NCBI RefSeq assembly: GCF_001697225.1
Contig: NZ_CP014671.1
Location: forward strand, 2,604,001-2,668,000
DNA length: 64,000 nt
From: Immundisolibacter cernigliae
Lineage (GTDB): Bacteria > Pseudomonadota > Gammaproteobacteria > Immundisolibacterales > Immundisolibacteraceae
Direction of reading: 5' to 3'
Numbering within the stretch: the first letter of the stretch is position 1; each line of letters begins with the position of its first letter. Under the pieces are notes generated by a model. It ran no database searches. It was not told where the DNA came from and was given only the letters and a program-made list of their open reading frames with translations. The translations under genes were made by a program, and so were the position numbers. Shown piece after piece: positions 47,832 to 63,901 of the stretch.

Positions 47832-49244
47832 TCAGCCCTGCGCCGGATCGGCCGGGACGGGCGCAAAGCCGCCGAGCGACACCCGCAGGCGGCCGCCATC
47901 GAGCGTGAAGGACAGTTGCAGTCCGAGCGCGGTAGCCAACGCCCGGGCGAGCGCGAGGCCGAGGCCGGAATGGGCCCCGTTGCCACCCTCGTGGCGGTGA
48001 AAGAAGCGCTCCGCGAGGCGGCCCAGATCGGCCGGTTCGAGCAGCGGCGCGGCGTTTTCCAGCCACAGCGCGGGGGGATCACAGGCGCACTGCACCCGCA
48101 GGCAGTCGCCGGGCGGGGCGTGCTGCACGGCGTTGTCGAACAGGATGGCGAGCAGGCGCTCGAGCAGCGCCGCATCGGTCAGCACCCAGCAGGGCTCGAC
48201 CCGAAGTTGCCAGTCGAGGCCGTGGTCGGTGGCCGGCATCCGGCAGCGCTCGGCCTGTGCCGCCAGCAGCGCGGCCAGATCGACCGGCTCCGGCTGCGGC
48301 TGTTCGCTGCCTGCCTCGACGCGGGCCAGATACAGCAGGCCGTTGACGATTTTGGTCATCTCGGCGAGCGCTGCGTCGAGCTGGGCGAGATGTGCGCCCG
48401 CAATACCCGGCTGGCGCCGGGCCAGTTCGGCCAGCAGCCGCGCCTCGGCCAGCGGCGTGCGCAGTTCGTGGGCGAGATCACGCGAGAAGCGCCGCTCGCG
48501 TTCGAGCGCGGCCAGCAGGCGCTCCAGCGTGGCCGCGAGCTTGCCGGCGACGGGCGCCAGTTCGCTCGGCAGGTCGTCGCCTGGCGGCGGCTGGCCGCCG
48601 CCGTCGAGTGGCAGTTCCGCCACCGCGCGGCCGAAGGCATCGAGCGGGGCGAGCGCGCGGCGGATCGACCAGGCGGTGAGCACCAGGACCAGCAGCAGGG
48701 TGCCGCCGGTGCCGGTGACCAGGATGCGGTGCAGACGCCGCTCGAGCGCATCCAGCGCCTCGCGCTCTTCGGCGACCACGACCAGCAGCGCGCCGCGCGG
48801 GTCATCGGACGGCAGCGGCACCACCCGGGCCAGGGCGCGGCCGCGGTGGCCGTCCGGCAGCCGAAGGTCGTAGTAGGCGCCGTCCCTGCTCGGTTGCGCC
48901 GGGCGCGCCAGATCGCGCCCATGGCTGGAGGCCGAGCGCGCCAGCACGGCGCCGTGGCCGTCCCAGACCTGATAGAAATCAGTGTGCCCGTGGCCGCCAA
49001 ACTGCGGCAGCAGGGCCTCGATGGGCAGTTGCCGGCCGGCGCCGGGGGCGCCCAGGTAGGCGGTCAGCGCCTGAGCCCGGGCCGCCAGGCCGACGTCGAA
49101 GCGCCGGTACAGCTCGGCGTCGACCAGATAGTCGATGACCGCGAACAGACCGCCCATGGTCAGCGCCACGGTCAGGCCCAGGCGCAACCCCAGGGTGCTG
49201 CGCAACGAAGGCCGCCAGCCGCGTCGGTACTCAGCCCAGGACAT
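47832..49244 (-). CDS. Heavy-metal sensor histidine kinase (CzcS/CusS-like)
   Basis: This membrane histidine kinase has 470 residues. Two transmembrane helices (about 18-38 and 172-195) enclose a periplasmic domain. A HAMP-like segment (RRALAPLDAFGRAVAELPL), the phospho-acceptor His259 in FSRDLAHELRTPLAEA, and the N-box AILFDNAVQHAP and G-box GAHSGLGLALARALA follow. I start at ATG 49244, which overlaps the response-regulator gene by 14 nt; an ATG at 49277 is also possible. It lies directly upstream of czcB, so it presumably senses the metal exported by the pump. Confidence 0.9.
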   Translation of the reverse strand: MSWAEYRRGWRPSLRSTLGLRLGLTVALTMGGLFAVIDYLVDAELYRRFDVGLAARAQALTAYLGAPGAGRQLPIEALLPQFGGHGHTDFYQVWDGHGAVLARSASSHGRDLARPAQPSRDGAYYDLRLPDGHRGRALARVVPLPSDDPRGALLVVVAEEREALDALERRLHRILVTGTGGTLLLVLVLTAWSIRRALAPLDAFGRAVAELPLDGGGQPPPGDDLPSELAPVAGKLAATLERLLAALERERRFSRDLAHELRTPLAEARLLAELARRQPGIAGAHLAQLDAALAEMTKIVNGLLYLARVEAGSEQPQPEPVDLAALLAAQAERCRMPATDHGLDWQLRVEPCWVLTDAALLERLLAILFDNAVQHAPPGDCLRVQCACDPPALWLENAAPLLEPADLGRLAERFFHRHEGGNGAHSGLGLALARALATALGLQLSFTLDGGRLRVSLGGFAPVPADPAQG

Positions 49245-49896
49245 AGCCGAAACCGCGGCGGTTTTCGATCTGCCCATCCCAGCCGGCGGCGGCGAGCTTG
49301 CCGCGCAGGCCGCTCATCAGCACCTCGATCACCTTGTCGGAGGCGCGGGCATCGGCGTCATACAGGCGCTCGAACAGCATGGCCCGCGACAGCACCCGGC
49401 CGCGGCCGTGCAGCAGGACTTCGAGCAGCGCGTACTCGCGCGGCGACAGGTTCAGCGGCCGTCCCGCGCAGCGGGCGACACGCCGGGCGCTGTCGAGTTC
49501 GAGATTGCCGGCCGCCAGCTGCGCCGTGGTCGCGCCGTGGTAGCGCCGGCCCAGTGCCCGCAGGCGGGCGATCAGCTCATCCAGCGCGAAGGGCTTGACC
49601 AGGTAGTCATCGGCACCGGCGTCCAGCGCCGCCACGCGGTCGGTGAGCTGGTCGCGGGCCGACAGCACCAGCACCCGGGTCGGCACTCGCCGGGCGCGCA
49701 GATGCGCCAGCACCGCCATGCCGTCGACCTTTGGCAGGCCCAGATCGAGCACCGTGAGCGGGTAGTCGTAGCCGTCCAGAAAGGCCAGGGCAGCAGCACC
49801 GTCGGCGGCGGCATCGACCGCGAAACCGGCGCTGGCGAGGCCCATCTGCAGGCCCTCGCGCAGGCGCTGGGAATCTTCCACCAGCAGCAGGCGCAT
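49231..49896 (-). CDS. OmpR-family response regulator (CzcR/CusR-like)
   Basis: This 221-residue regulator has a receiver domain with phospho-acceptor Asp51 (TVLDLGLPKVDG) and Lys in DDYLVKPFALDELIARLRAL. The winged-helix domain (about 128-220) has the motif LNLSPREYALLEVLLHGRGRVLSR and ends ENRRGFGYVLG. The first gene of the efflux operon, it should control the operon's own promoter, located in the 327-bp gap to the divergent acetyltransferase gene. Confidence 0.92.
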   Translation of the reverse strand: MRLLLVEDSQRLREGLQMGLASAGFAVDAAADGAAALAFLDGYDYPLTVLDLGLPKVDGMAVLAHLRARRVPTRVLVLSARDQLTDRVAALDAGADDYLVKPFALDELIARLRALGRRYHGATTAQLAAGNLELDSARRVARCAGRPLNLSPREYALLEVLLHGRGRVLSRAMLFERLYDADARASDKVIEVLMSGLRGKLAAAGWDGQIENRRGFGYVLG

Positions 49897-50223
49897 GGCT
49901 CAGCCGGCCGCCGCGGCGCCCGGCGTGGGCGGTCTACGAGTGGTCATGGCAGGCATTATGGCGCCTGGCATGTCGGGGCCGGCGCCGCTGGTGTTCCTGC
50001 GGCGTCGCCCGGTGCGCGGCGCGATCGACGGTGCCGCGCCGGCCGATTGACGCGGTGCGCGACAAGTCTCGCGGTTGCCCGCCGGCGGCAGGCAGGAGGG
50101 CGGGGAGGGATGGCATGGGTGGTGGAGCCGCCCTGGGTTTCAGCGTGGTGTCCGTCATCTGACCGCTCACCGTCCCACTGTCCTGCTAGCATCGAAAGCA
50201 TTTCCCGTCCCGGCACCGGCCCG
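49897..50223. other. Intergenic region between the metal efflux operon and the acetyltransferase gene
   Basis: This 327-bp divergent gap is very GC-rich. I see no convincing coding sequence, no clear direct repeats of the kind bound by CzcR/CusR regulators and no tRNA. A TAGCAT hexamer near 50190 could be a -10 for the plus-strand gene, but a -35 at proper spacing is not evident. The gap must contain both promoters. Confidence 0.4.
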
Positions 50224-52923
50224 ATGACCATCCGCAACCTCAACTACCTGTTCAAACCCAAATCGGTGGCGCTGATCGGCGCCAGCACCCGGCCAGGCTC
50301 GGTCGGTGCCGTGCTGGCGCGCAACCTGTTCCGGGCCGGTTTCGACGGGCCGGTGATGCCAGTCAATCCGAAGTACGTGGCCGTCGAGGGCGTGCTGGCG
50401 TACAAGAACGTGGCCAGCCTGCCGCTGGCACCGGACCTGGCCGTGATTGCCACGCCACCGGACACGGTGCCGGGCCTGATCGCCGAGCTGGGCGCCCGTG
50501 GCACCAAGGCGGCCGTGATCATCACCGCCGGTTTCAAGGACAGCGACAACGCGCACGGCGGCGCGCTGCGCCGCGCCATGCTGGAGGCCGCCCAGCCGCA
50601 TCTGCTGCGCATTGTCGGGCCCAACTGCGTGGGTCTGATGGTGCCCGGACAGCATCTGAATGCGAGCTTTGCGCACCTGACGCCGCGCGCCGGCCGGCTG
50701 GCCTTCGTCGCCCAGTCGGGCGCGGTGGTGACCTCGGTCATCGACTGGGCGCAGCCGCGCGGGGTTGGCTTCTCGCACCTGGTGTCGCTGGGCGATGTGG
50801 CCGACGTGGACTTCGGCGACCTGCTGGACTACCTGGCCGGCGACCCGGACACCGACGCCATCCTGTTGTACATCGAGGCGGTGCGCAGTCCGCGCAAGTT
50901 CATGTCGGCGGCACGTGCCGCGGCGCGCGTCAAGCCGGTGGTGGTGGTCAAGGCCGGGCGCAGTGCCGCCGCCGCCCGTGCCGCGGCCTCGCACACCGGG
51001 GCGTTGGCCGGTAACGACGCGGTCTACGACGCGGTGTTCCGGCGCGCCGGCATGCTGCGCGTGCACACCCTGGACGAGCTGTTCACGGCGGCGGAGATCC
51101 TGGCCACCACGCGCCCGCCCGCGGGCGACCGGCTGGCCATCATCAGCAACGGCGGCGGCATCGGCATCATGGCCACCGATGCCCTGGGCTACATGGGCGG
51201 CCGGCTGGCCGAGCTGGCGCCGGCCACGATCGCAGCGCTCGACCGCGTGTTGCCGGCAACCTGGTCGCACGGCAATCCGGTCGACATCGTCGGCGACGCG
51301 CCGCCCGAGCGTTACGAGGCGGCCCTGCTGCCGCTGCTGCAGGATCCGGGCGTGGATGCCGTGCTGGCGCTGCACGCGCCGGTGGCCGTCGCCGACGGGG
51401 CCGAAGCGGCCCGCGCCGTGGTGCGCGCCTTCAGGAGCAAGCCGGGCAAGACGCTGGTGACCAGCTGGGTGGGCGATCAGGTTGCCCGGGCCGGGCGGCA
51501 GGTGTTCACCGACAATCGCATCGGCACCTGCCGCACGCCGGAAGAGGCGGTGCGCGCCTTCATGTACCTGGAGCGTTACCGGCGTGGCCGGCTGGCGCTG
51601 ATGCAAACCCCGCCGTCGGTGCCGGAACAGTTCGAGCCGGATGCCGAGCGTGCGCGTTATGTCTGTCGCCAGGCCCTGGCTGATCATCGGGACTGGCTGT
51701 CGCCGGATGAAGTTGCGGCGCTGCTGGCCGCTTATCACATCCCGCAGGTGCAGCCGCGGCACGCCGCGACGCCCGAGGCGGCGGGCCAGGCAGCGGCCGA
51801 CATCGGCGGCCCGGTGGCGCTCAAGATCCGCTCGCCGGACATCATCCACAAGACCGATGTCGGCGGCGTGGTCCTGAGCCTGCAGGGTGAGGCCGCGGTA
51901 CGCGGCGCCGCCGAGGCGATGCTCGAACAGGTACGCAAGAGCCGCCCGGATGCGCGCATCGACGGCTTTCAGGTCGAGCCGATGCTGGACCGCAGCCGCA
52001 GCCACGAGCTGATCGTCGGCATTGCCGTCGACCCGCAGTTCGGGCCGTGCATCCTGTTCGGCCAGGGCGGCACGGCGGTGGAGGTGCTCAACGACACCGC
52101 CATCGGCCTGCCGCCGCTGAACATGCGCCTGGCGCACGAGCTGATGAGCTTCACCCGCGTGCACGGCCTGCTGCAGGGCCACCGCGGCATCCCCGGCGCG
52201 GATCTGGACGCCATCGCGCTGACGCTGATCAAGGTCGCCCAGATGGCGGCCGACCTGGCCGAACTGGTGGAGCTCGACATCAACCCATTGCTGGCCAGCC
52301 CCGAAGGGGTGCTGGCGGTGGACGTGCGCGTGCGCGTGGCCCCGGTGGCCGATCCGGCCGCCCCGCGCCTGGCGATCCGGCCCTATCCGAAGTCCCTGGA
52401 GCAGACGGTGGTGATCGGCGACGGGCGCAGCCTGCTGCTGCGGCCGATCCTGCCCGAGGACGAGCCGAAGCTGCAGAAAAGCTTCGAACGCCTGACGCCC
52501 GAGCAGGTGCGGCTGCGCTTTTTCGTGCCGATGAAGGAGCTCGGCCACAGCCTGGCCGCGCGCCTGACGCAGATCGACTACGACCGCGAGATGGCGCTGA
52601 TCCTGACCGAACCGGGCATTCCGGGCACCACGGAAATCTTCGGCGTGGTGCGCATCGCCGCCGATCCGGACAACGAGCGCGGCGAGTACGCGGTGGTGGT
52701 GCCCGAGCACATGACCGGCCAGGGCCTGGGCGCGCTGCTGATGCGCCAGATCATCGATTACGCCAAAAAGCGCGGCCTGCGTGAGGTGTGGGGCGACGTG
52801 CTGCGCGAGAACGCGGCCATGCTGGGCCTGGTGCGCAAGCTCGGCTTCCGGGTCAAGGATGACCCCGATGATCCGTCCCTGGTGCGGGTGACCCTGGACC
52901 TGACCGCGTTGCCTGCGACCTGA
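50224..52923 (+). CDS. patZ: Protein lysine acetyltransferase Pat/PatZ (acyl-CoA-synthetase-like plus GNAT domain)
   Basis: It transfers acetyl groups from acetyl-CoA to lysines of metabolic enzymes, classically AMP-forming acetyl-CoA synthetase. The 899 residues comprise a CoA-binding Rossmann domain (1-130; KSVALIGASTRPGSVGAVLARNL), succinyl-CoA-ligase-like domains (130-460), an ATP-grasp-like domain (485-710; ALKIRSPDIIHKTDVGGVVL) and a C-terminal GNAT domain (725-899; EYAVVVPEHMTGQGLGALLM). This is the architecture of E. coli PatZ (886 residues) and Salmonella Pat. I chose ATG 50224; the open frame upstream is not family-like. A deacetylase-family gene follows after 3 nt. Confidence 0.92.
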   Translation: MTIRNLNYLFKPKSVALIGASTRPGSVGAVLARNLFRAGFDGPVMPVNPKYVAVEGVLAYKNVASLPLAPDLAVIATPPDTVPGLIAELGARGTKAAVIITAGFKDSDNAHGGALRRAMLEAAQPHLLRIVGPNCVGLMVPGQHLNASFAHLTPRAGRLAFVAQSGAVVTSVIDWAQPRGVGFSHLVSLGDVADVDFGDLLDYLAGDPDTDAILLYIEAVRSPRKFMSAARAAARVKPVVVVKAGRSAAAARAAASHTGALAGNDAVYDAVFRRAGMLRVHTLDELFTAAEILATTRPPAGDRLAIISNGGGIGIMATDALGYMGGRLAELAPATIAALDRVLPATWSHGNPVDIVGDAPPERYEAALLPLLQDPGVDAVLALHAPVAVADGAEAARAVVRAFRSKPGKTLVTSWVGDQVARAGRQVFTDNRIGTCRTPEEAVRAFMYLERYRRGRLALMQTPPSVPEQFEPDAERARYVCRQALADHRDWLSPDEVAALLAAYHIPQVQPRHAATPEAAGQAAADIGGPVALKIRSPDIIHKTDVGGVVLSLQGEAAVRGAAEAMLEQVRKSRPDARIDGFQVEPMLDRSRSHELIVGIAVDPQFGPCILFGQGGTAVEVLNDTAIGLPPLNMRLAHELMSFTRVHGLLQGHRGIPGADLDAIALTLIKVAQMAADLAELVELDINPLLASPEGVLAVDVRVRVAPVADPAAPRLAIRPYPKSLEQTVVIGDGRSLLLRPILPEDEPKLQKSFERLTPEQVRLRFFVPMKELGHSLAARLTQIDYDREMALILTEPGIPGTTEIFGVVRIAADPDNERGEYAVVVPEHMTGQGLGALLMRQIIDYAKKRGLREVWGDVLRENAAMLGLVRKLGFRVKDDPDDPSLVRVTLDLTALPAT

Positions 52924-55270: not shown

Positions 55271-55338
55271 CTGTAGGAGCCCGGCTATGCCGGGCGATCA
55301 TCGCGCTGCAGAAGCCCGGCTGCGGCGGACGATCATCA
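55271..55338. repeat. Two tandem REP-like hairpin units between convergent genes
   Basis: Unit 1 (CTGTAGGAGCCCGGCTATGC and on to 55302) has a perfect 7-bp stem GCCCGGC/GCCGGGC (55279-55285 with 55289-55295). Unit 2 (CTGCAGAAGCCCGGCTGCGG, from 55307) is a degenerate copy with the same CGATCATC ending. The GTAGGAGCCCGGC head and the location after converging genes resemble the REP elements common in Xanthomonas and Pseudomonas relatives. They may also act as a bidirectional terminator. Confidence 0.65.
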
Positions 55339-58300
55339 CGGGGGCGATTGATCGCCGGCCTGATCGGCGTCGATCCGCTGGGCCTTGCCCCGCCAGTGGA
55401 TGCCGCGCAGGTTCGCGTCTGTGCCGGCTGCTGCCCGCACATGCAGCTCGCCGGCGCGCAGTTCGATGCCCAGCAGCCCATAGGCCGCCCACAACATGCG
55501 CGCCGCCGCCCCGGTGTACCAGCTCCAGCCGCCGCGGCCCTCGTGGCCGGGGCCGCTGTAGATGTCCGCCGGTTGCTGGTGCGGGGCCAGGCCGTAACGG
55601 GCGGCCAGTTCCGGCCCATCGCGGTCCAGCGGCGAGATCTTGCACCACAGCCGCAGCGCGTCGGCGCGCAGCAGCTGCGCGGTTTCGGGGTTGCCTGCGT
55701 CGCGCGCCAGGGCGGTGAGCGCGTCCACCAGCCACGAGCTGCCGTGCGAGTACTGGCCGCCGTTCTCGCGCACGCCGGGCGGGTACAGCGCGATGCGGCC
55801 GGGCCAGGGTTTGGAATGCTCATCCGACGGCGGCCACTGCACGCGCACCAGGTGGTCTGATTCGAGCTCCGGCAGATCGGCGCGCAATGCCGCCAGGGCG
55901 ATGTCGTTCGGCACGGCGCCGGACAGGGCCGGCCAGGCAGCGGTCAATGCGTTTGGCAGCAGCAGCGGCGTGCCGTCGTCGGCGATGGCGCGCAGATAAC
56001 GCGCGTCGCGCTGCATCCCGGCCAGTGCCGTGCGCAGGCGCGCGGCTTCGCCCAGCCAGCGGGTGGCGGTCGCGACATCGCCGTGAGCCTGCGCCAGCGG
56101 CGCGAAGTCGATCAGCACCCGATGCAGGAAAAAGCCCAGCCACACGCTCTGGCCGCGGCCGTGGTGGCCGATGCGGTCCAGGGCATCGTTCCAGTCGCCG
56201 CTGCCGATCAGCGGCAGGCCATGCCGGCCGCGCCGCGCCAGGGTGTAGTCGACGGCGCGCCGGCAGTGTTCGTACAGACTGGCGCGCTCGGCGCTCGGCT
56301 GCGGGGCAAAGCCCAGGCCCTCGGCACCGTGCGGGATCGGCCGGCCTTCGAGGAAGGGCGTGACCTCACTCAGGATGCCCGCATCGCCGGTGGCGGTCAC
56401 GTACTGCGCCGTCAGGTACGGCAGCCAGGCCTGCGGGTCCGAGGCCCGGGTGCGGGCGGCAAAGCCGGTGCCACCGGCCGGCGTGGGGTGCCACCAGTGC
56501 ACCACGTCGCCTTGCAGGAACTGCTGGCTGGCGTGGCGCAGGATCTGCTCGCGGGCCGTTTGCGGGTCGATCAGCAGCAGCGGCAGCACGTCCTGCAATT
56601 GGTCGCGAAAGCCGTAGGCGCCGGAGCGCTGTTGCGGCCCGCAGCGCGCCCACAGCCGCGCCGCGACCACCTGGTACGGCAGCCAGGTGTTGATCAGGCG
56701 ATCGAAATCCGGGCGGTCGGTTTTGACGCGCAGCATGCCGAGGCGCCGGCGCCAGTCGGCCTCGGTCGCGGCCAGCGCCGCCTGCGCCCAGCCGAGCTCG
56801 CGGGACTGCGCGGCCAGCGCGCGCGCCTCGTCCAGACTCGGCGCCTGGCCGAGCGCGAAGCTCACCCACAGTTCGCCGCCGGCCGGCACCTGCAGCTCGC
56901 CCGACAAGGCCGCGACGCGGCAGCCGTCGTCATGGGCCGCCGGATCGCCGGCGCCAAGGCCCACGAAGCAGGGCAGCGGGCCGGCCGCCTTGCCGACGAA
57001 GCGGCTGCGCACGGTCTCGATCGCCGGCTGCGCAAGGCTGCTGGTCACGAAGGCCCAGCCGGGCGCGAACAGGTTGTCCGGGTTGCGCGCGAACACGACG
57101 CCGTTTTCCTGCCGCACTTCGATCCGGCCCCGGCTGTCGGCGGCGATTTCCGCCAGCACCCACTCGAAATAGCCCACCACCCGGCAGCGGCGCGCCGTCG
57201 CAGCGCGGTTGGCGATCCGCAGGAGGCGCGCCTGTGCCGGCTGGTCCGGCGCCACGCACACAGTCAGTTCCAGGTCGAGTTCACCCAGCGAGCTGACGAA
57301 GCGCGCCTGGCCGGGCGCGAACTCGGCCCGGTGCGCCACCTCAGGCCGCCGCAGCGGCGCAAACGTCGGCGATCCGCAACTGCCGGTGGCGAGATCCACC
57401 ACGTACAGCCCCTCGCCGGGCAGGCGGTGGCTGGTTTCGCCAAGCCGAAACGGCGTCAGGGCGTTCTGCTGGCTGTTGCCGGCGAAGGACGCGATGTCGC
57501 CGGCACTGTCCAGCACCGCACCGTGGCCCAGGGCGTTGGCGATCAGATGGCTGTAGGGGCGCGGCGCGTTGCCGTCGACGCTGAGCGTCCAGCCGTCGGT
57601 GGAAAATTCGCTCGTCGGCGGCAAGGCATCCCGCACCTGGCGGATCGCAGTCAGGCTTGCTTCCAGCGTGGCCGGTGCCGGCAGCGGCGTGCCCAGTTGG
57701 CGGGCGATCAGCTGTGTCGCCGCGGCTGCATCCGGCGCAAAGCCGGTGACGAAGCGCACCTGGGCCCTGCCGTGCGGCGGGACGAATACCTCGACGGTGA
57801 GCGAGAACGCGGGGTCGAAGGCGTACAGCAGGCCCTGGTCGTCGGGCCTGCGCGGCGCGCCGGCTGCCAGACCATCCGGGTGCCCGATGCCGCCGGCACC
57901 GACGAAGCGCCCGCGGCTGTCCTCGTAGCCGACCAGGCGCACCGCCTGCCCGTCGGCCGCCACGGCGTGGAAGGCCGTTGCCCCGCCCGGCCGGCCGCGC
58001 GAGTCGGTCAGCAGGCGGCTGTGCGCCAGCAGCGCGCACAGCGGTGCCACGAAATGCGTGCCGATGTGCTGCGCGTTGAAGGCCGGGTGGCGGGCCGCCG
58101 CCTCGGGGCTGAGCATCAGCTCCTGGAAGCTGCTCAGGTGCAGCAGGCGCGGGCGATCGGTGCGGTTCTCGAAGCTCACTGTCCAGCATTCGAGGGCGTC
58201 GTCGGGTGGTACCTCGACGCGGGCGGTGGCCGTCAGATCGTGCGTGTCGGCGCGGAAGCACAGCGCGGTCGACGACAGCTCGATAACCGAGTGGCGCACG

Positions 58301-60735
58301 TCGGCGCGCGGGCGGGGCTCGCGCATCAGCGACCACACCGGCTGCCCGGCTTCGGACACATAGAAGAACCGACCGCGGCGGTCCAGGCCGTCTTCCGGAC
58401 GGCGCGTGAGGTCGATTTCCGGACAGCCCTTGCGGTCGCGGATCGCCTGCGCATGGCCCAGGCCATCCTCGGCCAGGCGCAGCGTGTAGCGACCATTGCC
58501 CAGCCGGTGCATGGGTGTCTGATGGATGCGCGCCAGCGTACCGGCGCGCGCCGCGCGGCGCAGCACCAGCGCGGTGATTGCGATCAGCAGCACCGCTGCC
58601 ACAGCGTAGGCGCCCAGCAGGTCGTGCACCGCCGGCAGCAGCGGTCCGGCCTGGCCGTGCATCGCCTCGGAACGTGCCCAGACCTGATCCCACTCGGCGC
58701 CGCGCGGGATGTAGAACGGCACCAGCAGCGGCGCCCAGGTGGCAAAGCGGCGCAGGCCTTCCGGAATCACCTGCCCACGCGGCCCGTGACCGAGCCGGCG
58801 CGCCAGGTTGGCATCGACCGCGTCGACACCGACGAAGGAGAAATTGACCAGCGTCGCCACCCGCAGGCCCATGTGATCGAACCAGATCAGCACCCGCAGC
58901 CAGTCGTAGGCCATCACGCCCAGGAACAGTTCCAGGCTCCAGGCGCGGTAGTCGCCGGCCGGCTGCACGACTTGCTGCACGGTGGCCAGCACCGAGCGCA
59001 CGGCGCCGTCCTGGTTGTACCAGGCCGGGTCCGGCGCCAGGCGCAGGAAGGACGCGATGATCGGCGCCATCCACAGACCCCAGCGCAGCACCCGCACCGT
59101 CTGGGCGCCGACCTCGGCCAGCCCGGCGCGGCTGAACATGGCGCGGATCGGCCGCAAACGCCGCTCGATCAGCGCCGTCAGCAGCACCAGGTTCAGGCTG
59201 AACAGCGGCGCGGCGATCGCCCACTGCACCACGCCCGACAGCGACTGGGCATAGAACAGCTTCACGCCGCCCGTGATCAGGCCAAGGTCGGTGGCGCCCC
59301 ACTTGCTGAACAGCGGGTAAATGATGAACTCGTAGCTGCCGCGCCCGGCTTGCGGGTTGTGCACCGCCGCGTAGCCGGCGAAGCGGTCCAGCACCACCTG
59401 CAACTGGCTGGCGTCGAAATACCAGGCGATCAGTCCGCCGGTGACGCCGCCCATCGCCGCCTGCAGGAGGTACACCGCCGGTCGCTGTGGGCGCCGCCGC
59501 AAACCGCGCCCGATGGCGGCGGTGTCGAACAGCAGGTTGGCCCCGGCGTAGACCACGGCGCCGCCCAGCACACCGGCGGCAAAGCGCACGCCATCGCTGC
59601 CGGCGCGCACACCGAGCGTGAACCACAGCGCCACCGCCAGCCCGGCCAACGCGCCGCGCGCCAGGTTGTCCGGCTGTCGGTAGGCGGCGGCGAGCCGGCC
59701 GGCCAGCGGCGGGCTGCCGTCGAAGGTCTCGATCACCGTGCGCGCCAGCGGAAACAGCACTGCACCGACCAGCGCCCCGCCCAGCAGCGGCCAGCCGGCG
59801 ATCCAGCCCGCCGTCGGGCCAGCGCCCAGCGCCGCGCCGCCGTGTATCAACACCATGAACCAGGCGCTGTAGACCGCGCCCTTGCCGGCGCCGCTGCGCC
59901 AGTGGTCGGCCGCCGCCTGCCAGGTCGGGCGCCGGCCCTTGAGCGCATCCAGCAGCGCGCCGGTGATCAGAAAGGTCTGGCCCCACAGGCCGGCCTGTGC
60001 CAGCGCGGCGCTGGCCACCACCAGCGGCAGCTGCTGCCAGCCGGGCAGGCTGGCGGCAAACGGGCCGCTGCCAAGCTCGGCTAGCCGCGGCGTCAGCGCC
60101 GCCCACAGCGCGCTGCCCCACAGCAGCGCGTGCAGGCGGCCGCTGCGCGTCCAGCGCTGGTCCATCGCCAGGCCCAGGCCCAGCAGCGCGAACTGCCCAA
60201 ACAGACCCAGCACCAGCCACTGACCCAGCAGTCGGCGTGCGGATGCGGGTAGACCCTGTCCCGGCCAGGCGCCCGGCGCGTCCAGCAGCCCGTTCGAGGC
60301 GAGCAGGAACAGACCGTTGAACAGCACGAACGGCAGCGCCAGCAATACCAGCGACGTCGCCGCCGGCAGCGGCCGGCGCTGATGGGCTGGCAGCAGGCCC
60401 GCCGCCAGGCCGTAGACAGCCAGCGCGAGGGCCGCGCCCAGCGGGGTCAGCCGCAGCAGATCAGGCCACTGCTGCGGCGTCTGCCACAGCGGCAGGCCGG
60501 GCGTCGCCGCCAGCGCCAGCAGCGCCGCGACCGCCGCGTGACGCAGGGCGACCAGCAGTCCGTCGCGCGCCCCACCGGCGTGGCCGATCAGCAGCAGGCC
60601 CAGCCCGGCGCCCGCAGCGGCGGCCAGCGCCATGCCGGCATGGACCGCCGCCAGCGCCGCGGCGAACAGGGTGGCGCCCAGCGCCCACAGGGCGATTGGT
60701 TGCGGCTGCGCGGCCTCGGCAGATGCTGTTTGCAC
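55336..60735 (-). CDS. Large membrane protein with C-terminal GH94 (NdvB-like) phosphorylase region
   Basis: The 1,799-residue protein has two very different parts. Residues 1-~740 are mostly hydrophobic, with many transmembrane helices and no recognisable glycosyltransferase motif. From ~743 (MHRLGNGRYTLRL) a supersandwich domain begins, and a second starts near 1043 (STDGWTLSVDG). An (alpha/alpha)6 barrel (about 1332-1790) contains YGFRDQLQDVLPL and GSGDWNDALDRIG, the typical GH94 acid region near 1510. NdvB cyclic beta-1,2-glucan synthases end the same way but are ~2,800 residues and carry a GT84 glycosyltransferase, absent here. Start GTG at 60735 with GAGGG 6 nt before. Likely role: phosphorolysis or length control of a membrane-associated beta-glucan. 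Confidence 0.8.
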   Translation of the reverse strand: MQTASAEAAQPQPIALWALGATLFAAALAAVHAGMALAAAAGAGLGLLLIGHAGGARDGLLVALRHAAVAALLALAATPGLPLWQTPQQWPDLLRLTPLGAALALAVYGLAAGLLPAHQRRPLPAATSLVLLALPFVLFNGLFLLASNGLLDAPGAWPGQGLPASARRLLGQWLVLGLFGQFALLGLGLAMDQRWTRSGRLHALLWGSALWAALTPRLAELGSGPFAASLPGWQQLPLVVASAALAQAGLWGQTFLITGALLDALKGRRPTWQAAADHWRSGAGKGAVYSAWFMVLIHGGAALGAGPTAGWIAGWPLLGGALVGAVLFPLARTVIETFDGSPPLAGRLAAAYRQPDNLARGALAGLAVALWFTLGVRAGSDGVRFAAGVLGGAVVYAGANLLFDTAAIGRGLRRRPQRPAVYLLQAAMGGVTGGLIAWYFDASQLQVVLDRFAGYAAVHNPQAGRGSYEFIIYPLFSKWGATDLGLITGGVKLFYAQSLSGVVQWAIAAPLFSLNLVLLTALIERRLRPIRAMFSRAGLAEVGAQTVRVLRWGLWMAPIIASFLRLAPDPAWYNQDGAVRSVLATVQQVVQPAGDYRAWSLELFLGVMAYDWLRVLIWFDHMGLRVATLVNFSFVGVDAVDANLARRLGHGPRGQVIPEGLRRFATWAPLLVPFYIPRGAEWDQVWARSEAMHGQAGPLLPAVHDLLGAYAVAAVLLIAITALVLRRAARAGTLARIHQTPMHRLGNGRYTLRLAEDGLGHAQAIRDRKGCPEIDLTRRPEDGLDRRGRFFYVSEAGQPVWSLMREPRPRADVRHSVIELSSTALCFRADTHDLTATARVEVPPDDALECWTVSFENRTDRPRLLHLSSFQELMLSPEAAARHPAFNAQHIGTHFVAPLCALLAHSRLLTDSRGRPGGATAFHAVAADGQAVRLVGYEDSRGRFVGAGGIGHPDGLAAGAPRRPDDQGLLYAFDPAFSLTVEVFVPPHGRAQVRFVTGFAPDAAAATQLIARQLGTPLPAPATLEASLTAIRQVRDALPPTSEFSTDGWTLSVDGNAPRPYSHLIANALGHGAVLDSAGDIASFAGNSQQNALTPFRLGETSHRLPGEGLYVVDLATGSCGSPTFAPLRRPEVAHRAEFAPGQARFVSSLGELDLELTVCVAPDQPAQARLLRIANRAATARRCRVVGYFEWVLAEIAADSRGRIEVRQENGVVFARNPDNLFAPGWAFVTSSLAQPAIETVRSRFVGKAAGPLPCFVGLGAGDPAAHDDGCRVAALSGELQVPAGGELWVSFALGQAPSLDEARALAAQSRELGWAQAALAATEADWRRRLGMLRVKTDRPDFDRLINTWLPYQVVAARLWARCGPQQRSGAYGFRDQLQDVLPLLLIDPQTAREQILRHASQQFLQGDVVHWWHPTPAGGTGFAARTRASDPQAWLPYLTAQYVTATGDAGILSEVTPFLEGRPIPHGAEGLGFAPQPSAERASLYEHCRRAVDYTLARRGRHGLPLIGSGDWNDALDRIGHHGRGQSVWLGFFLHRVLIDFAPLAQAHGDVATATRWLGEAARLRTALAGMQRDARYLRAIADDGTPLLLPNALTAAWPALSGAVPNDIALAALRADLPELESDHLVRVQWPPSDEHSKPWPGRIALYPPGVRENGGQYSHGSSWLVDALTALARDAGNPETAQLLRADALRLWCKISPLDRDGPELAARYGLAPHQQPADIYSGPGHEGRGGWSWYTGAAARMLWAAYGLLGIELRAGELHVRAAAGTDANLRGIHWRGKAQRIDADQAGDQSPP

Positions 60736-60953
60736 GAAAACCCTCGTGGATTGGCCTCGATCCGACGCGGCGGCCGGTTGCAGGCGGCCGCTTCTGCCAG
60801 AATGGCAGCCCGCGGCAGCTGGTATCCGGGCCGGTCGGTCATCCTGGAGGCCGCCCGCGGGGCGGCCGGTGAACAGCGCCCGCGGCCGGGGTCAAAGGTG
60901 CGGGCCCGGCGCAGCGCCGGCGCATTCTAGTCATCCGGAACTCATCCATACCC

Positions 60954-62363
60954 ATGTTTCTGTCGCGCGCGGCGTGTATTGCGGTTTTGTTGCTGCTGGC
61001 CGGCCACGCGCTGGCCCAGGACGGCGGCCTGATCGACCGCGTGCAAATGGGCGACAACGAGCTCGATTGCGCCCAGATTGCGGGGCAGGTCAGGGAGCTC
61101 GAGGCCCTGCTGGCGCCGCACAGTGGCGACCCGGGCGCGGTGCGGGGCGCCACCGAGACCGTCACCCGCTCGCGCACCGGCGAGGTGGTGGCCGGCGTGG
61201 CTAAGGTGCTGCCGTTCGGCAGCATCTTTGGCGACATCGCCAAGGACGTGCTCGGCCGGCGCGGGCGCGATTCCGAGGCGCGCATCTCGTCGGCCCGGGC
61301 GCGCAAGGAATATCTGGTGGACATGTTCCTGAAGCGTGGCTGCCGGGTCGCCGACGTGGCTGCTGGCAAGGCCAAGCCCGACGCGCCTGCGCCAGCGGCG
61401 GACCCCGCCGCGGATGCGACCGGTGCCTCCGCCACCACCGCGCCTGCCCCGGCACAGCCTGCGCTCCCGGTGGGCACACCGCTCGCGACCGCGCCGGCGG
61501 TCGCGGCAGCGCCGGAATCCGGGCCGACCGCCGAGCCCGAGGCGGCGGACAGCCCCGCCCAGGCGCCACGCGGGCCGCTGTTCATGCTCGATTTCCGGCT
61601 CGCGTTTCGCACCAGCGCCGATGCCGACGGCCCGGCCGGCGTGCCCGGCCTGGAACTCGGCGGTGTGCCCCTGACCACCATGCAGGCGATTACCGACGCC
61701 GCTTATGTGGCCTTGCTGAAAGAGCTCCAGCAGGCCGGTTTCGAGGTGCTCAATCCGGAACTGGCCGCGTCCCTGCCGTCCGGCGGCAGCCTGCCGGCAC
61801 CGGCGCGCGCCGGTGATTATCTGTACTTCGCGCCCAGCGGCGCGCCGCTCGCGCAGGCGCCGACGGCCGATGCGCCGGGCAGCGATGCCGCCCTGGCCGA
61901 AACCCGCGCCGCCCTGGCGCAGGCCGTGGCCGGTCGCCGCCCCGGCGTGAGCTACGGCATCGCCGTCTGGTACGTGGATTTTGCCCGGGTGAGCGGCGCA
62001 GTCGGCGGCGATCAACCCCGGCAGCTGGAGTCGCGCCTGGCGGTGGTGGCCGGCAGCCATCTGGCACTGGTGGAGCCGGCCGCCGGTGACGACACGCCGC
62101 TGGATGCCGTGCGGGTGATGAATCTGGGTCGTGATCTGGTCAGCCGCGAGCCCTACGGGCAGGTGCGCCTGTCCGGTCCGGCCGGGGCGCTGGAACTGAA
62201 GGCCGATCCGCAGCGCTTTCGCAGCCTGGTCGAGCGGCAGCTCAAGCGCGGCCGCAGCGCGCTGATCGCCAGCCTGCCGGCGCCGCTTCCCGCGCCCGCC
62301 ACGGCGCCGCCCACAGAGGCATCGACGGAGCCGGTGACACCACCTGCTGCAGTGCCGCACTGA
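60954..62363 (+). CDS. Exported protein of unknown function with Pro/Ala-rich linker
   Basis: I do not recognise this 469-residue protein. It has a clear signal peptide (MFLSRAACIAVLLLLAGHALA, cleavage before QDGG). A short N-terminal region (about 22-135) has two Cys residues and a Gly-rich hydrophobic segment (VLPFGSIFGDIAKDVLG). A low-complexity Ala/Pro/Thr linker (about 140-205) follows. A folded C-terminal domain (about 208-440) includes FMLDFRLAFRTS and GVSYGIAVWYVDFARVSG, and the tail is again Pro/Ala-rich. It is probably periplasmic. It is divergent from the GH94-type gene and 11 nt before the dehydrogenase gene, so it may be co-transcribed with the latter. Confidence 0.75.
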   Translation: MFLSRAACIAVLLLLAGHALAQDGGLIDRVQMGDNELDCAQIAGQVRELEALLAPHSGDPGAVRGATETVTRSRTGEVVAGVAKVLPFGSIFGDIAKDVLGRRGRDSEARISSARARKEYLVDMFLKRGCRVADVAAGKAKPDAPAPAADPAADATGASATTAPAPAQPALPVGTPLATAPAVAAAPESGPTAEPEAADSPAQAPRGPLFMLDFRLAFRTSADADGPAGVPGLELGGVPLTTMQAITDAAYVALLKELQQAGFEVLNPELAASLPSGGSLPAPARAGDYLYFAPSGAPLAQAPTADAPGSDAALAETRAALAQAVAGRRPGVSYGIAVWYVDFARVSGAVGGDQPRQLESRLAVVAGSHLALVEPAAGDDTPLDAVRVMNLGRDLVSREPYGQVRLSGPAGALELKADPQRFRSLVERQLKRGRSALIASLPAPLPAPATAPPTEASTEPVTPPAAVPH

Positions 62364-62374
62364 CCGAGGGCCAC

Positions 62375-63901
62375 ATGCGCAAGGCACTGAAGGTTTCGGT
62401 CGGGATTCTGGGGACGGTCGGCGTGCTGGCGGCGCTGGCGCTGGGCTACCTGAGCACGCAGGTGACGGTTCGTGGCCCGGTGCTGCACGCCATTGCCGGC
62501 ATCGGCGGCGCGCAGCCCACATCGGCCCAGCTCGCCGGCCTGCGCCTGGCGCCCGGCTTCACGGCCAGCCTGTACGCCGAGGGTCTGGGGCCGGCGCGGG
62601 TGCTGCGCTTCACGGACACCGGCGATCTGCTGGTCAGCATCACGCGGGCGGGCAGCATCCTGCTGGTCGAGCGGGACGCGGATGGCGACGGCCGCGCCGA
62701 TGGTGTGCGCACGCTGCTGCAGGGACTGGACCGCCCGCACGGCATCGATGTTGCCGAGGGTTGGCTCTACTTCGCCGAGACCGGCGCCGTGCGCCGGGTG
62801 CGCTTCGATGCCGCCACGCGCGCGGTGTCCGGCGCGCCGCAGACGGTGGCGACACTGGCCGGCGGCGGCATGCATTTCACGCGCACGCTGCGCGTGGGTC
62901 CGGACCGGATGCTGTACGTCAGCAACGGTTCGTCCTGCAACGTGTGCGTCGAGATCACCCCGCGCGCCGCCATGCTGCGCGTGGACCCGCAAGGCGGCGC
63001 CGTGACGCCCTTCGCCGAGGGCCTGCGCAATACCGTCGGCTTCGACTGGCAGCCGGGCAGCGGGGCTCTGTTCGGTGTCGACAACGGACGCGATCTGCTC
63101 GGCGACGATTTTCCACCGGACGAGCTGAACCGCATCGTTGCCGGCGGCTTCTACGGCTGGCCGTTCTGGCACGGCGACAACGTGCCCGATCCTGAATACG
63201 GAAGCCATCCGGCTGCCGCCGGGCGCGCCCCGATCGCGCCGGCTCATGCCTTCGGCGCGCATGTCGCGGCGCTGTCGTTCAATTTTTTCGACCCCGACCG
63301 CGCGCCGCCCGGTTTCGAGCGCGCCGCCCTGGTCGGCCAGCACGGCTCGTGGAACCGCAGCGTGCTGTCGGGCTATCGGGTCTCGTCCCTGCACTGGGCC
63401 GCCGACGGGCGCATCACGGAGCGCGATTTCGCGGTCGGTTTCGTGCAGGGGGGCAAGGTCACTGGCCGGCCGGTGGACGCACTGCCGGGTCCGGACCGGG
63501 CGGTGTACGTGTCGGACGATTACGCCGGTGCGATCTACCGGATTGCGTGGGACCCGGCGACCGCCGGGCCGGGGCCGGTGTTTGTGCCGCCGCTCGCGGC
63601 CGGGCCGCATCAGGCCGGTAGCCCGTCGTCGCCGGCCGCGTCAGCCCTGAGCCGGCTTGACCCGGCGCAGCAGGCGGATGCCACGCTCGCGCGGGGCGCG
63701 GCGCTGTTCGACCGGCACGCCTGCGCCAGCTGCCACCGCGGTGGCGCGCCCGGCATGCGACTGACCGCGCTTGGCAGCCGTTACTCGCAGGCGGCGCTGG
63801 GCGCCCTGCTGGCAAACCCGCCGGCCTCGATGCCGGCGCCGGCGCTGGATGATGCGGATCGGCGCGCCCTGGCGGCGTATCTGCGCGCGGCCTATCCCTG
63901 A
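62375..63901 (+). CDS. Membrane-anchored PQQ sugar-dehydrogenase-like protein with C-terminal cytochrome c
   Basis: The 508 residues have an N-terminal membrane anchor (about 5-27). A six-bladed beta-propeller of the soluble glucose/sorbosone dehydrogenase type follows (about 50-415; LRFTDTGDLLVSITRAGSILLV, GLDRPHGIDV, AEGLRNTVGFDWQPGSGALFGVDNGRD). A monoheme cytochrome c domain has CASCH at 450-454 and a likely axial Met in SMPAPALDD. Such fusions oxidise sugars or alcohols in the periplasm and pass electrons to the respiratory chain. The substrate is unknown and PQQ binding is inferred from the family only. ATG 62375 follows the preceding stop by 11 nt. Confidence 0.87.
   Translation: MRKALKVSVGILGTVGVLAALALGYLSTQVTVRGPVLHAIAGIGGAQPTSAQLAGLRLAPGFTASLYAEGLGPARVLRFTDTGDLLVSITRAGSILLVERDADGDGRADGVRTLLQGLDRPHGIDVAEGWLYFAETGAVRRVRFDAATRAVSGAPQTVATLAGGGMHFTRTLRVGPDRMLYVSNGSSCNVCVEITPRAAMLRVDPQGGAVTPFAEGLRNTVGFDWQPGSGALFGVDNGRDLLGDDFPPDELNRIVAGGFYGWPFWHGDNVPDPEYGSHPAAAGRAPIAPAHAFGAHVAALSFNFFDPDRAPPGFERAALVGQHGSWNRSVLSGYRVSSLHWAADGRITERDFAVGFVQGGKVTGRPVDALPGPDRAVYVSDDYAGAIYRIAWDPATAGPGPVFVPPLAAGPHQAGSPSSPAASALSRLDPAQQADATLARGAALFDRHACASCHRGGAPGMRLTALGSRYSQAALGALLANPPASMPAPALDDADRRALAAYLRAAYP

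Follow-up and report, generated by a model that had tools for sequence, protein, structure and literature searches.

A Cgs-type GH94 phosphorylase module fused to a large predicted membrane domain and associated with periplasmic glucan genes

Results

The gene and its surroundings

The gene described here lies on the minus strand at positions 55336-60735 of the window, the whole 64,000-nucleotide stretch of Immundisolibacter cernigliae contig NZ_CP014671.1 that was analysed. It runs for 1,799 codons without interruption from a GTG start, and a Shine-Dalgarno-like GAGGG (60741-60745, minus strand) is found 5 bases before this codon. The GC content at the three codon positions is 0.76/0.54/0.89 and is similar in both halves of the gene. 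A full length orthologue is present in one congeneric genome (94% identity) and another in a second (76% identity), where it ends at residue 1668 together with the contig. The congeneric orthologues and the coding composition rule out a chance ORF and bear out the intact 1,799-residue protein of the initial annotation. A frameshifted NdvB can also be ruled out, since a full length NdvB is found elsewhere in the genome.

The gene is a singleton, with a convergent EamA gene on one side and a divergent pair on the other, and these neighbours provide no useful clue to its function. The divergent pair (60954-63901, plus strand) encodes a 469-aa protein without a Pfam match and a fusion protein with GSDH-like and cytochrome c parts. 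Elsewhere in the window, an ORF at 49135-52923 (plus strand) encodes an acyl-CoA synthetase (ADP-forming)-like protein with a GNAT domain at its C-terminus; its true start is probably several hundred codons later than predicted.

The phosphorylase half

Judged by sequence comparison, a complete GH94 module of the Cgs type, composed of GP1, GP2 and the catalytic domain but without the RFL subdomain, makes up the C-terminal 1,060 residues. Pfam recognises both the GH94 supersandwich (4.5e-59, 200.4 bits for a cut-off of 23) and the GH94 catalytic domain (3.5e-61, 207.6 bits for a cut-off of 27). The nearest solved structures are those of Agrobacterium tumefaciens Cgs/NdvB (2e-125 with the single sequence, 6.5e-220 with a profile), and the next family by profile is that of the cellobiose phosphorylases (1.4e-74). 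The earlier reading of this part as the phosphorylase end of a cyclic beta-1,2-glucan synthase is therefore upheld. In a profile-profile comparison, residues 738 onward align with NdvB from residue 1680 onward (hhalign E 2e-136).

All subdomains are encoded on the minus strand. The first beta-supersandwich (residues 741-1012; 57700-58515) is the equivalent of Cgs GP1, the second (residues 1056-1296; 56848-57570) corresponds to Cgs GP2, and the catalytic (alpha/alpha)6 domain covers residues 1328-1750 (55486-56754). The RFL subdomain, looked for between GP1 and GP2 as a test of Cgs/NdvB membership, is absent: its position coincides with the sole large gap in the alignment to NdvB, and the spacing between the two supersandwiches is 41-61 residues across the membrane-GH94 family.

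Alignment to A. tumefaciens Cgs (AtCgs) places D1378 (in the motif FRDQLQD; codon at 56602-56604, minus strand) opposite D2393 and D1517 (in GDWND; codon at 56185-56187, minus strand) opposite the catalytic D2528, once the numbering of the 8rf9 and 8rf0 chains, which differs by 19 residues, is taken into account. Mutation of D2393 and D2528 inactivates the AtCgs phosphorylase (PMC10901819). As D1378 is kept in 64 of 65 family members and D1517 in all 65, the membrane-GH94 phosphorylase is very probably active as an enzyme. Its closeness to Cgs suggests that it would be specific for beta-1,2 linkages.

The membrane half

Residues 1-740 (58516-60735, minus strand) form a domain with about 16 predicted transmembrane helices, and sequence, profile and model searches gave no sign of GT84. 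No Pfam family was found at E<=10, and no PDB sequence was found by profile at E<=10 with a three-sequence profile. Comparison of these residues with residues 1-1100 of NdvB by hhalign gave a probability of 0.1%, and no Pfam GT was found. This negative profile-profile result led us to reject a hidden GT84 and agrees with the initial annotation, which had described the N-terminal part as lacking GT84-like sequence. Nor was the cyclase (GH189, PF10091) found in the membrane-GH94 protein by Pfam.

The structure prediction that had been proposed along with the profile search yielded a confident helical membrane domain: AlphaFold2 with 59 sequences produced a nearly all-helical model of residues 1-740 (pLDDT 90.1, pTM 0.89), and the conserved half, residues 414-738, modelled alone reached a pLDDT of 84. 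Foldseek returned nothing from the PDB at E<=0.001 for either model. In a VIA comparison the best Z scores of the two models were 5.4 and 5.3, to helical proteins that are unconvincing matches; the best rows (among them pyrophosphatases, GPCRs and, at low Z, short parts of ArnT or MurJ) were rejected as unrelated helical proteins with low Z. No fold was recognised in these searches for the modelled domain, and a missing match is not proof of a new fold.

The highest conservation of the entire protein is found in residues 551-700 (58636-59085, minus strand), which include the motifs WGLWMAP, WYNQDGA, WFDHMGLRVATLVN and RFATWAPLL..PFYIP and, as residues invariant in the family, D620, H621, R625 and D638. 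The earlier description of the N-terminus as almost purely transmembrane holds for its approximately 16 hydrophobic helices but not for residues 564-700, which are less hydrophobic, conserved and interface-like.

Loops rich and poor in K/R alternate in register with the helices in a positive-inside count. From this loop charge, the N-terminus and the phosphorylase are both predicted to be cytoplasmic and the conserved residues 551-700 to lie on the periplasmic face, with the limit that the helix count is ambiguous at residues 593-700, where one further crossing would place the GH94 module in the periplasm. As read from their sequences, the planctomycete-type members and one Elusimicrobia copy carry an added, exported-looking N-terminal domain, and the planctomycete type has one additional hydrophobic segment ahead of helix 1; together these features agree with the same topology. 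In the Elusimicrobia copy (L112:6679-9000) the N-terminus is extended by about 770 residues, which give weak galactose-binding-like matches.

Family and distribution

When about 85,000 species genomes were scanned with a pattern, 187 relatives with the fused architecture were identified, and the loci of 80 of these were fetched. Carriers include Immundisolibacter, Methylocystis, Methylosinus, Methylocapsa, Rhodoblastus and Geminicoccaceae, as well as Desulfobacterota-type genomes, Anaeromyxobacter, Omnitrophota and Elusimicrobia; beyond the 187, the fused gene is also present on Isosphaeraceae plasmids. In sampled searches the membrane domain was found in about 1% of the genomes of a class or phylum. 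In the fetched loci, most complete copies encode 1,780-2,160 aa and one encodes 2,538 aa; none of them consists of the membrane domain alone. The two halves evolve together and the fusion is a stable family, as indicated by the correlation between N- and C-domain identities (r=0.977 over 2,080 pairs). Many ORF clusters upstream of the Methylocystis copies resembled either normal conserved synteny or shadow ORFs and were set aside.

Association with opgG and beta-1,2-glucan enzymes

In nine fetched loci, from Desulfobacterota-type, Anaeromyxobacter (Myxococcota) and Methylobacteriaceae (Alphaproteobacteria) genomes, the gene adjoins opgG (PF04349, MdoG, GH186) on the same strand and within 220 bp. 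The opgG gene, identified by Pfam in four of these loci, which supplied the profile that identified it in the others, is upstream in seven and downstream in two. One locus (L080) shows the order GH94-membrane gene, opgG, GT2, and in two others (L045 and L054) another opgG-GT2 pair is found about 5 kb away. More generally, opgG is present in the window's own genome and in 21 of 21 distinct proteobacterial-type carriers searched, a count that overstates independence because the carriers are partly related; the background frequency is 109 of 398 genomes (27%), or 32% of the better ones.

The three Omnitrophota/Elusimicrobia carriers searched lack opgG and contain 3 to 6 PF10091 (GH144-like) matches each. 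One Omnitrophota locus has, on either side of the gene, a PF10091 gene with CBM-like domains (L099:3955-6270 and L099:14377-16443). The planctomycete-type gene is followed by a gene for a 690-705-aa partner (L023:16818-18932, L024:17270-19348, L025:16758-18872 and L030:7842-9920) which matches the GH192 beta-1,2-glucanase EeSGL1 (8xuj) with an E of 1.8e-6. This partner family is conserved, has no Pfam match and is distantly related to GH192; it may form a new branch in the clan of beta-1,2-glucanases. Cgs, counted as present where an open frame of 2,880-3,092 aa included PF10091, occurs in about 7 of 25 carriers, most of which are without NdvB, and the membrane-GH94 protein is thus independent of Cgs.

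The window's own genome is equipped with further glucan machinery. A canonical full length NdvB/Cgs of 2,987 aa is encoded far from the window (L034:4691-13654, minus strand; C1 about 1772690-1781653) and includes the single PF10091 match of this genome. The initial annotation had named a separate NdvB with identical function as evidence against its reading. This point applies by half: a separate NdvB does exist, yet the two proteins are not equivalent. Three tandem MdoG/OpgG-type paralogues, with an OpgH-like GT2 gene following them, lie about 95 kb away from the gene in the window (L119:8959-15999, plus strand; C1 about 2756958-2763998). Two congeneric genomes likewise carry the three-copy opgG array.

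Discussion

A proposed transmembrane beta-1,2-glucan phosphorylase

We are highly confident of the phosphorylase identity and the link to the OPG pathway taken together. That relatives of the gene lie beside, or share genomes with, enzymes of periplasmic beta-1,2-glucans makes it probable that the protein has a role in moving or recycling these glucans across the membrane. No transporter fold was recognised, and the transport role of the membrane domain is an inference. The explanation that we prefer, and to which we give roughly an even chance, is that of a two-part inner-membrane enzyme, a transmembrane beta-1,2-glucan phosphorylase whose membrane domain admits the ends of periplasmic glucan chains for phosphorolysis inside the cell, for recycling or length control. 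Periplasmic glucan, or fragments released by OpgG/OpgD (GH186) or by GH144/GH192-type glucanases, would be bound at the conserved periplasmic face, and the non-reducing end of the chain would be handed through the membrane domain to the cytoplasmic GH94 site. There, GH94 would use inorganic phosphate to cleave glucose-1-phosphate from the non-reducing end of the beta-1,2-glucan. Such vectorial phosphorolysis would make uptake one-way, and the outcome would be either recycling of the glucan, with OpgG or a glucanase supplying the ends, or the setting of chain length. The initial annotation suggested that the protein may act on the product of another enzyme, trimming, phosphorolysing or exporting that glucan. 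This suggestion fits these observations, since the carriers have other glucan machinery, including opgG in all of the proteobacterial-type ones searched.

The other suggestion of the initial annotation, a new type of synthase, is weakly supported. There is no nucleotide-sugar domain, which leaves GT84 and other synthases that use UDP-glucose without support; without a soluble GT domain or a cytoplasmic loop big enough, what is left is a GT-C-like glucosyltransferase that would draw on polyprenyl-linked glucose on the periplasmic side, while GH94 would control length as in Cgs. We consider this quite unlikely. The invariant Asp, His and Arg of residues 551-700, predicted to be periplasmic, are what an active site might look like, and the GH94 module of Cgs does serve a synthase (PMC10901819). 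Yet no GT match was obtained from Pfam, PDB sequences or, at significance, the fold search (an absence which is not a disproof), a cytoplasmic length-controlling phosphorylase would be on the wrong side for a periplasmic synthase, and the carriers already have opgG and often opgH. Moreover, known GT-C enzymes carry conserved acids in the first loop, whereas here these sit in the C-terminal half of the membrane domain.

The protein could instead be an exporter or length regulator, in which case GH94 would trim cytoplasmic glucan from OpgH-type or Cgs synthases before the membrane domain let it out. This is rather unlikely: OpgH-type GT2 enzymes are generally regarded as exporting what they make, most carriers lack Cgs, and the probable glucanases beside the gene in Omnitrophota and planctomycete loci suit breakdown better. 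The same opgG/opgH link, with the Cgs link in about 7 of 25 carriers, is nevertheless consistent with it, and length control by a cytoplasmic phosphorylase is known in Cgs (PMC10901819), whose glucan, however, already has its own ABC exporter, Cgt (PMC10514313). That the membrane domain merely anchors a beta-1,2-glucan phosphorylase near OpgH/OpgG at the membrane appears unlikely. Although the GH94 half of Cgs acts as a scaffold independently of catalysis (PMC10901819), about 16 helices are more than an anchor needs, and the highest conservation of the protein, including invariant charged residues, falls in the membrane domain.

We tentatively raise the possibility that the membrane domain of the fused protein represents a new class of polysaccharide handler, a glucan conduit or a lipid-donor transferase, coupled to cytoplasmic phosphorolysis that moves a polysaccharide end across the membrane. 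To our knowledge, there is no described example of such movement driven by phosphorolysis. Periplasmic beta-1,2-glucans are important in osmotic adaptation, symbiosis and infection, and their trimming and recycling are poorly known. The widespread, opgG-linked family (at least 187 species genomes) provides, with its membrane domain of no recognised fold, a concrete candidate for how glucan might be recycled, or its length controlled, across the inner membrane.

Comparison with known systems

The enzyme half is of a known kind, while neither the architecture nor the membrane domain seems to have been described in the literature searched, which covered few subscription papers and in which no description of the membrane domain was found. 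The sole mention of the planctomycete plasmid copies there is as a GH94 phosphorylase gene (PMC5352709). Like Cgs (GT84-GH189-GH94; 8rf0/8rf9), the fused protein has a GH94 module that aligns throughout, with 34% identity to NdvB over 1,028 columns, and keeps the residues equivalent to the catalytic D2393 and D2528. In contrast to Cgs, it lacks the NTD, GT84, cyclase and RFL, and its membrane domain of about 16 helices is unrelated to that of Cgs. SOGP (5h3z) is not known to have a membrane domain and gives a weak profile match (E 0.0087). The GP1-GP3 layout without RFL is nevertheless shared with LpSOGP (PMC10901819). The cellobiose and chitobiose phosphorylases (GH94) share the fold and the catalytic motif but are far more distant than Cgs, their match beginning at residue 1052, and, unlike the fused protein, they are about 800 aa long and have no membrane domain. 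The opg genes named in the literature searched do not include the fused family, which is tied to the OpgG/OpgD-OpgH periplasmic glucan pathway by gene adjacency and co-occurrence.
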